This document shows, one piece after another, positions 19,938 to 21,456 of a DNA stretch of 32,064 nucleotides. The stretch spans positions 1-32,064 of the forward strand of contig ONTJ01000009.1 of the NCBI GenBank assembly GCA_900320735.1. Reading direction: 5' to 3'. The position numbers and the translations under genes were made by a program. This DNA comes from an uncultured Eubacteriales bacterium (lineage in GTDB: Bacteria; Bacillota_I; Bacilli_A; RF39; UBA660). The stretch's first letter is position 1. The number at the start of each line of letters is the position of its first letter. The notes beneath the pieces were generated by a model. That model was given only the letters and a program-made list of their open reading frames with translations. It did no database searches and was not told where the DNA came from.

Positions 19938-19972
19938 AAAAAGAAAGATCAAATTTGACCTTTCTTTTTTAC
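19938..19972 (+). terminator. Bidirectional terminator between ychF and a minus-strand gene
   Basis: A near-perfect hairpin: AAAAAAGAAAG...TCAAA pairs with TTTGA...CTTTCTTTTTT with one A-C mismatch and almost no loop. The convergent 88-residue gene uses part of the stem for its last codons. Confidence 0.8.
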
Positions 19973-20215
19973 ATATACCCATATGCCAACACCAATTATA
20001 ACAAATGTGAATACACTCAAATATACAAAAGTATTACTCTTTTTTAGTTCATAATCATAATCATACTTATAATTTTGGTAATTGAAGGTACCATTTATGC
20101 TATCATAACTATTATTTTTTGATATATTTGCCCGTGTCGCAATAGCTATTATTATACTTATTACAATTGGTACAACTATCAAAATAATTAAATATTTAAT
20201 TGCTTTCTTACTCAT
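19949..20215 (-). CDS. Small two-TM membrane protein, 88 aa
   Basis: An unrecognised 88-residue protein with two TM helices (about residues 6-27 and 62-81). Between them is a Tyr/Asn/Asp-rich loop (NYQNYKYDYDYELKK) that would face outside if both ends are cytoplasmic; the C-terminus is Lys-rich (VKKKGQI), consistent with that. AAAGGAAG lies about 8 bases upstream of the ATG, and a good divergent promoter is present. The gene interrupts the otherwise standard ychF-rpsF neighbourhood. No function can be proposed. Confidence 0.75.
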   Translation of the reverse strand: MSKKAIKYLIILIVVPIVISIIIAIATRANISKNNSYDSINGTFNYQNYKYDYDYELKKSNTFVYLSVFTFVIIGVGIWVYVKKKGQI

Positions 20216-20293: not shown

Positions 20294-20322
20294 TTTACAT
20301 TTAATTAGCTTTTTGTTATAAT
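20294..20322 (+). promoter_or_regulatory. rpsF operon promoter
   Basis: TTTACA (20294-20299), 17 bp, TATAAT (20317-20322) with TG at 20314-20315. Predicted start near 20329 gives a leader of about 60 bases. Confidence 0.78.
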
Positions 20323-20330
20323 ACTTTTGC

Positions 20331-20384
20331 GAGTATTAATTTACTCTCTGCCTATTTATAGGCCAATAGTCCAAAGGGAGGTGC
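20331..20384 (+). promoter_or_regulatory. Candidate autoregulatory leader of rpsF-ssb-rpsR
   Basis: The leader can form two incompatible pairings. Hairpin A: GAGTA (20331-20335) with TACTC (20342-20346). Alternative: CTCTC (20344-20348) with the Shine-Dalgarno GGGAG (20376-20380), enclosing an inner hairpin GCCTA/TAGGC (20350-20354, 20359-20363). The second hides the ribosome site. The S6:S18 complex is known to bind rpsF leaders in many bacteria; I could not confirm the published consensus here. Confidence 0.5.
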
Positions 20385-20389
20385 AAAAA

Positions 20390-20674
20390 ATGAATTATGA
20401 ATTATTATTCATTGTTAGACCTGATTTAGAAGAAAAAGTTATTAAGGATACTTTCAAAAAAATTGAAAAAGTATTAGTTGATAACGGAGCAAAAGTATTA
20501 AGCTCAAAAGAACTAGGTCAAAAAGAATTAGCATATGAAATAAAAAATCATAAATCTGGTTATTACTTCTTAATAAACGTAGAATCAGATGCTAAAGCAA
20601 TTGATGAATATAACAGAGTATCTACACTTAGTGAAGATATTATAAGACACATAGCAATTAAATTAGAAAAATAG
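20390..20674 (+). CDS. rpsF: 30S ribosomal protein S6
   Basis: S6 binds S18 in the platform of the small subunit. The 94-residue product starts MNYELLFIVRPDLEE and contains GQKELAYEIKNHKSGYYF, both typical of bacterial S6. The ATG at 20390 is supported by AAAGGGAGGTG at 20373-20383; an in-frame start at 20327 would place translation at the transcription start and is rejected. It leads the rpsF-ssb-rpsR operon. Confidence 0.97.
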   Translation: MNYELLFIVRPDLEEKVIKDTFKKIEKVLVDNGAKVLSSKELGQKELAYEIKNHKSGYYFLINVESDAKAIDEYNRVSTLSEDIIRHIAIKLEK

Positions 20675-20694: not shown

Positions 20695-21159
20695 ATGAAT
20701 AGAGTAGAATTAATTGGAAGAATAACTAAAGATCCAGAACTAAGATACACAAGTGCAAATGTAGCAACTTGTAGATTTACACTTGCGGTAAATAGAAATT
20801 TTTCAAATCAAAACGGAGAAAGAGAAGCAGATTTTATTAATATAGTTGCTTGGAGAAATCAAGCTGAAAACATTAAAAAATATGTTTCCAAAGGAAGCTT
20901 AGTTGCAGTTGAAGGTAGAATTCAAACTGGTAGCTATGATAGAGATGGACAAAGGGTTTATACGACTGATGTAATTGCAGATAATGTTCAATTTTTAGAG
21001 TCAAAAAGTCAATCTCAAACTAGACAAACTGAAATGACTCCAGCAGATTTCGCAAATGATACTAAATCTGATAATGTACAAACTACTGACATAAATGAAG
21101 AAGTATTTGCTGATTTTGGTGATTCCATTGAAATTAGTGATGACGATATAGCATTTTAA
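20695..21159 (+). CDS. ssb: Single-stranded DNA-binding protein
   Basis: SSB coats single-stranded DNA in replication, recombination and repair. The 154-residue protein has the N-terminal OB fold ([44 protein letters not shown]) and a disordered, acidic tail ending SDDDIAF, the partner-binding tip present in nearly all bacterial SSBs (usually DDDIPF). Its position between rpsF and rpsR is the standard Firmicute arrangement. Confidence 0.97.
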
Positions 21160-21177: not shown

Positions 21178-21393
21178 ATGGCAGAATTCAGAAAGAAAAG
21201 AAAAAAAGTATGCCAATTATGTGCTGGTAAAGAATTAGATTATAAAGATACAGAAGCATTACATAGATATATTAATGAAAAAGGTAAAATATTACCAAGA
21301 AGAGTTACTGGTACATGTGCTAAGCATCAAAGAGAAGTAGCAAAACAAATTAAAAGAGCAAGAATGATGGCTTTATTGCCATTTACTAAATAA
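21178..21393 (+). CDS. rpsR: 30S ribosomal protein S18, zinc-binding form
   Basis: S18 of 71 residues, partner of S6. It retains the putative zinc ligands C12-x2-C15 and C47-x2-H50, so it is the zinc-binding (C+) version; many bacteria carry a zinc-free paralogue used under zinc starvation, not seen in this window. The motif [16 protein letters not shown] is characteristic. AAAGGAGG lies about 8 bases upstream; a terminator follows at once. Confidence 0.97.
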
Positions 21394-21418
21394 GGATTAA
21401 TGTCCTTATTTTTTTATT
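21388..21418 (+). terminator. Terminator of rpsF-ssb-rpsR
   Basis: Arms AATAAGGA (21389-21396) and TCCTTATT (21403-21410), 6-base loop, then a T run. The stop codon is inside the left arm. Confidence 0.85.
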
Positions 21419-21427
21419 GCTTAAATA

Positions 21428-21456
21428 CTGACATATGTTAAAAAATATAGTATAAT
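21428..21456 (+). promoter_or_regulatory. rplI-dnaB promoter
   Basis: CTGACA (21428-21433), 17 bp, TATAAT (21451-21456): a 5/6 match at -35 and a perfect -10. Confidence 0.75.

Follow-up and report, generated by a model that had tools for sequence, protein, structure and literature searches.

The window, by which we mean the whole stretch of 32,064 nucleotides that was analyzed, carries the gene row rpsF, ssb, rpsR, rplI, and dnaB (Pfam search), and the leader described here lies 5' of rpsF in what appears from the sequence to be an operon with rpsR (Table 1). A candidate sigma-70-type promoter precedes it. Promoter-like sites numbered 13 in the 1.6 kb scanned, compared with 11.0 expected, so that agreement with the consensus carries little weight by itself. 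Within the family of the window, the 5' arm of the first leader hairpin (P0) starts 6 to 8 nt past the -10 element in 112 of the 120 leaders with a recognizable -10. We infer that transcription starts near position 20329, which would give a leader of about 60 nt. Transcription attenuation was rejected as a mode of control on the strength of a terminator scan, which found no terminator-like site in the leader.

The gap between rpsR and rplI has features of its own. At 21392-21416, a small stem-loop (AAGGA/TCCTT) with a T run behind it was seen by eye, though it is absent from the terminator-scan list, and a promoter match, CTGACA-17-TATAAT, lies between the two genes at 21428-21456. Judged from this hairpin and this promoter match, rplI and dnaB may form a separate transcription unit. 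On the other side of the leader, the ychF-rpsF gap holds an 88-amino-acid open frame at 19949-20215 on the minus strand, opposite to both neighboring genes and with no Pfam match.

Table 1. Features of the rpsF locus, in window coordinates
Feature	Position	Strand	Motif or basis
Candidate promoter, sigma-70 type	20294-20322	+	TTTACA-17-TATAAT, TG before -10; 11/12 consensus match
P0, upstream hairpin GAGUA/UACUC	20331-20335 / 20342-20346	+	Sequence; conserved in relatives
P1 5' arm CUCUCU, anti-Shine-Dalgarno	20344-20349	+	Sequence and relatives
P2, nested hairpin GCCUA/UAGGC, loop UUUA	20350-20363 (20350-20354 / 20359-20363)	+	Sequence and covariation
3' bulge CAAUAGUCCAA, with C20371-C20372	20364-20374	+	Corresponds to the conserved cytosines, equivalent to C719/C720 of 16S, that S18 contacts (PMC4647458)
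P1 3' arm AGGGAG, most of Shine-Dalgarno inside	20375-20380	+	Sequence and relatives
rpsF, ribosomal protein S6	20390-20674	+	Pfam PF01250 (Ribosomal_S6), E 1e-27; start ATG 20390
ssb, single-strand binding protein	20695-21159	+	Pfam PF00436, E 1.8e-36
rpsR, ribosomal protein S18, S6 partner in repressor complex	21178-21393	+	Pfam PF01084, E 1.9e-27

Anatomy and conservation of the leader core

An earlier note on this DNA had described an rpsF leader with two mutually exclusive hairpins, one of them taking up the ribosome site. Direct inspection of the sequence bore out both hairpins and their coordinates, and the outer stem, P1, does take in most of the Shine-Dalgarno, GGGAGG at 20376-20381. 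P1 comprises 6 bp, namely, CTCTC (20344-20348) with GGGAG (20376-20380) plus the pair T20349-A20375, and bases 20344-20346 (CTC) are common to P0 and P1. Folding of the single sequence was unremarkable; when five segments were each compared with 200 dinucleotide shuffles, 20 to 37 of the shuffles folded at least as well (z from -0.8 to -1.4). The comparison with relatives, in contrast, exceeded chance by a wide margin.

Related leaders were gathered by searching for S6 in 60 relatives, 117 genomes of the family, and 247 genomes of the class (overlapping samples), with matches in 57, 112, and 239, respectively, and the set also drew on 80 loci of a second collection and 120 more upstream stretches. 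The resulting 269 leader rows reduced to 258 distinct ones, of which 251 were placed, and the final set held 254. Manual placement was used for L117 and L132 and manual re-placement for L214 and L247, and L135 and L147 entered once their orientation had been corrected; rows L242, L245, L256, and L258 were dropped, and all four likewise show CC before the Shine-Dalgarno. Leaving L036, L162, L193, L264, L265, and L268 out of the pairing and CC counts gave 246 distinct leaders; rows L036 and L162 were wrongly segmented and were scored against P0 within the family, to which L034 and L036 to L038 had been assigned from S6 identity. Here, "Bacillales" denotes 66 rows (the named loci L040 to L110 plus L112), and "other Bacilli" denotes 65, the remainder except L113. 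Two smaller sets, of 48 and of 19 leaders with similar bulge lengths and including that of the window, were chosen from the collection, and the 19-leader set was aligned.

The core is kept throughout Bacilli, and compensatory changes in rpsF leaders, which the earlier note had named as a check, were found for P1 and P2. In the MAFFT alignment of the 19 leaders, the covariation score of the two stems was 0.388, compared with 0.159 in shuffles, and 0 of 500 shuffles reached 0.388; paired alignment cells came to 95.7%, compared with 84.2% in shuffles, and moving the partner by one to three columns brought the score down to 0.173 or less. Four of the five pairs of the nested hairpin, P2, had changed on both sides in this alignment, and each P2 pair showed 8 to 65 double-changed sequences among the 118 distinct family leaders, the rows having been placed by pairing. 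With the same reservation about placement, all 118 of these leaders formed P1 pairs 2 to 5. The fifth P1 pair was U-A in 104 of them, C-G in 9, and U-G in 5, C-G (with AGGGAG) being the state of the window's genus. Every one of the 246 distinct leaders had the cytosine pair in the bulge 3' of the nested hairpin, with A as the next base in 239 and G in 7. Row placement had used CC together with P1/P2 pairing, and the counts on the 246 leaders are therefore biased toward these features, with P1 and P2 overstated.

Relation to the S6:S18 leaders

According to the available part of PMC4647458, S6 and S18 jointly repress through the E. coli rpsF leader about fourfold; a stem of that leader holds the putative Shine-Dalgarno, a cytosine pair mimicking C719/C720 of 16S rRNA is required, and K60 and R63 of S18 matter, with R61 having a modest effect. 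Binding of the B. subtilis rpsF leader RNA by S6:S18 is reported in the available parts of PMC4647458 and PMC10931766, both of which cite earlier work. Over 66 aligned positions, S18 of the window and S18 of E. coli share 53% identity, and the segment IKRAR, which holds K60, R61, and R63 of the E. coli protein (residues as given in PMC4647458), is identical in the two.

The earlier note had also proposed a covariance search with the Rfam S6:S18 leader model, and this did not recover the window: RF02893 (RpsF_leader) stayed below its gathering threshold, and relaxing the E value to 10 brought no Rfam match to the window either; the leader is accordingly not assigned to this Rfam entry. The same model gave 110.1 bits for the E. 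coli leader, which served as the control, and at E <= 1 it matched none of 10 other Bacilli and Clostridia loci (8 + 2), so that the nonmatch of the window says little against membership. An absence of Rfam matches is what might be expected if P1 belonged to another kind of Shine-Dalgarno-masking device, such as a thermosensor or the target of another regulator. We consider this reading highly unlikely and the least probable of those weighed here, since RF02893 misses the other loci as well, and since the leader tested in E. coli (PMC4647458) has matching core anatomy and a matching CC, with the same core present in B. velezensis.

From the 19 Bacilli leaders we built a covariance model comprising P1, P2, and the bulge, which scored 59.6 bits for the window and 51.5 bits for P. 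megaterium, both of them training rows; outside the training set it scored 40.7 bits for B. velezensis and 32.1 bits for C. difficile, and it gave no match to the E. coli leader even at an E value of 10. The window's own genome contained one significant site, the second match having an E value of 0.51. Matches at E <= 0.1 were obtained in 170 of the 195 genomes of a phylum sample, a tally that includes genomes which had contributed training rows and matches whose position at rpsF was not individually confirmed.

The 16S gene of the window's own genome, which is incomplete, was sought and not found. Among 58 family genomes, 8 matched a 16S pattern, and in all 8 the site reads ACCA; the CCA of the leader therefore fits the rRNA found in its lineage. 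In E. coli, by contrast, the leader has CCG, and so does the matching site in 16S. Since the B. velezensis leader and the 16S of the 8 relatives have A after CC, we do not take G as defining the conserved leader motif, for which "CCG" is the wording of a review. As for individual genomes, one (G308, row L242) reads CCG in its leader and likewise in its 16S, and another (G200, row L247) has CCG in the leader and CCA in 16S.

Whether this was the same motif as in other bacteria or a divergent one had been left open in the earlier note. The comparison with E. coli and Bacillus leaders and the S18 contact residues identify the anatomy as that of the established S6:S18 leader and not of a divergent one. 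The core is most probably a Bacilli-type S6:S18 leader of rpsF, at which S6:S18 would bind and repress as reported for other bacteria.

The P0 hairpin and its predicted competition with P1

P0 was scanned for in a 30-nt box, which replaced a first scan that had reached far into the promoter; the box may hold part of the -10, which applies equally to the shuffles. The P0 place held a hairpin of -3 kcal/mol or lower in 91% of 254 leaders, compared with 17% of dinucleotide shuffles (4 per leader). In the family, 113 of 122 leaders have a P0 whose 3' arm extends exactly 3 nt into a contiguous P1. One of these 113, the window's own row, rests on a choice made by hand, in that the scan preferred an arm reaching into the -10 and P0 was set as in the earlier note; with P1 fixed at 6 nt, the count is 111 of 122, and the window is not among them. 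Overlap differed elsewhere. In Bacillales it was 1 nt in 45 of 66 leaders and 3 nt in 20 of 66, and among the 65 other Bacilli it was 1 to 3 nt in 31 and absent in 29, with P0 not found in the remaining 5. Given the 1-nt overlap in 45 of 66 Bacillales and its absence in 29 of 65 other Bacilli, the two hairpins can largely coexist there. The mutual exclusivity claimed in the earlier note thus stands for the window, at full length of the hairpins, and for the 113 family leaders, and fails as a general rule across Bacilli. The C. difficile leader (L113, 1419-1486) has another upstream hairpin, AUGAGA/UCUCAU, which by eye seems to lie beside P1, not inside it; the automatic scan of that row picked a different hairpin, with a 4-nt overlap with P1.

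The sequences of P0 vary in ways that keep it paired. Among the distinct family P0 sequences with a 3-nt overlap, 71 of 72 have GAG in the 5' arm, as pairing with the shared CUC demands. When GAG was the sole criterion for locating the 5' arm, which succeeded for 113 of 122 family rows (9 were ambiguous or lacked CUC), P0 pair 4 formed in 111 of 113 leaders, compared with 95 expected, and pair 5 formed in 102 of 113, compared with 96 expected. In leader L176, P0 and the shared strand changed together, from GAG/CUC to GAA/UUC, with both helices kept. Pairs 5 and 6 were within the range of shuffles and pairs 7 and 8 were no better than shuffles, in counts that are biased because the helices were picked for pairing; a phylogenetic tree with 60 members of the family required at least five changes at pair 4, with only 1 or 2 independent pairs and no significance. 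Covariation of P0 within the family is modest.

These observations bear on the reading in which P0 pairing is fortuitous and P1, P2, and the bulge alone matter. The unremarkable folding of the single sequence and the 5 other Bacilli in which P0 was not found are compatible with it, but we regard it as very improbable in view of the excess of hairpins over shuffles and the pairing kept by differing sequences (GAGC/GCUC in L010, AUGGUU/AACCAU in L235, and AUAGUAAU/AUUACUAU in L243). P0 is real and widespread, but a conflict over 3 nt characterizes the window's family and some others.

We then compared predicted folding with the P0 5' arm free and with it held open, using nearest-neighbor energies in a calculation that leaves out protein, ribosome, and co-transcriptional order. 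For the window, predicted full P1 rose from 0.02 with P0 to 0.88 with the arm held open. The median for 112 family leaders with a 3-nt overlap rose from 0.06 to 0.74; P0 lowered predicted full P1 in 109 of these 112, by fivefold or more in 77, and the P1 state was predicted to be more stable than the P0 state in 16. The 20 Bacillales leaders with a 3-nt overlap behaved similarly in the prediction (0.03 to 0.76). In the 45 Bacillales leaders with a 1-nt overlap, the predicted median went from 0.31 to 0.80, with a fivefold or greater effect in 3, and in 7 leaders with no overlap, predicted full P1 did not rise on opening of the arm (0.45 to 0.30). Predicted availability of the whole Shine-Dalgarno was low in the window in either case, 0.019 with P0 versus 0.001 without it.

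We hypothesize that the window carries a Bacilli-type S6:S18 feedback leader in which P0 competes against the Shine-Dalgarno-hiding P1, a reading that we hold at about two chances in three. Judging by folding and conservation, P0 is probably an anti-sequestering hairpin in the window's lineage. In the free mRNA, the first structures to fold as the message emerges would be P2 and the 5'-terminal P0; P0 would tie up part of the P1 5' arm, leaving the Shine-Dalgarno more available, and S6, SSB, and S18 would be made. Once S6:S18 exceeded free 16S rRNA, the dimer would bind P2, the bulged CC, and the base of P1, and its binding would stabilize P1 at the cost of P0 and hide the Shine-Dalgarno. Translation of rpsF would then be shut off, and that of its neighbors too by coupling. 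If P0 is functional in this way, it would explain translation without repressor despite an intrinsically stable masking stem, and it would provide a simple switch for a ribosomal-protein operon.

The main rival accepts the core as an S6:S18 leader and gives P0 another job, such as protecting the 5' end from decay or stacking on P1, the 3-nt conflict being incidental to the sharing of CUC. P0 is kept across Bacilli though its overlap with P1 varies from 3 nt to none, it sits at the inferred transcription start, and in the 45 Bacillales with a 1-nt overlap it lowers predicted full P1 only from a median of 0.80 to 0.31; all of this suits the rival. The overlap of exactly 3 nt in nearly all family leaders, the strong competition predicted there, and the near-universal GAG in the 5' arm argue against it, and we judge it possible but on balance doubtful. 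To competition between P0 and P1, the reading that we prefer, we tentatively add a more specific proposal, close to an even bet though on the doubtful side of it: that Bacilli S6:S18 leaders have an expression platform of their own, in which a hairpin at the start of the message invades the anti-Shine-Dalgarno strand with its 3' arm. In the window's family the two states would be exclusive, with free RNA mostly in P0 until S6:S18 shifts the balance, giving a two-state, riboswitch-like device.

Comparison with known systems

In the available parts of PMC4647458, PMC7247131, and PMC10931766, a competing hairpin is not mentioned; the founding papers (Matelska 2013, Fu 2014) lay outside the scope of the comparison, and we do not claim that P0 is unreported. 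The E. coli rpsF leader (RF02893) resembles that of the window in lying 5' of rpsF and in having a stem, H1, with the putative Shine-Dalgarno, a nested hairpin, H2, and, within the region that binds the proteins, the conserved cytosine pair that mimics C719/C720 (PMC4647458). As read from the sequence, it differs in its longer H2 region and in a bulge with CCG rather than CCA; the E. coli operon has priB where the window has ssb, and just as RF02893 misses the window, the Bacilli model misses E. coli.

The B. velezensis leader (L271; B. subtilis group) is closer. It has the core CUCCUUGC...GGGCCGCUUAGACCAAAAGGAGG, to which the Bacilli model gave the score above, with CCA in the bulge, and GUGAGUAAU lies upstream of the core with its partner strand just before P1. 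Its P1 is CUCCUU/AAGGAG, in contrast to CUCUCU/AGGGAG in the window, and, by eye, about 1 nt is shared between its upstream hairpin and P1, in contrast to 3 nt in the window. The S6:S18 leader of Chlorobi has the same predicted ligand and an rpsF-ssbA-rpsR operon; its motif is reported to be unlike the rRNA site (PMC7247131), whereas the CC in the bulge of the window's leader resembles that site.

None of the Bacilli or Clostridia leaders examined here was recovered by the current Rfam model. Set beside these systems, the leader is of a known kind, newly placed in the window's lineage, and with it a small-genome lineage of Bacilli takes its place within the S6:S18 feedback system.
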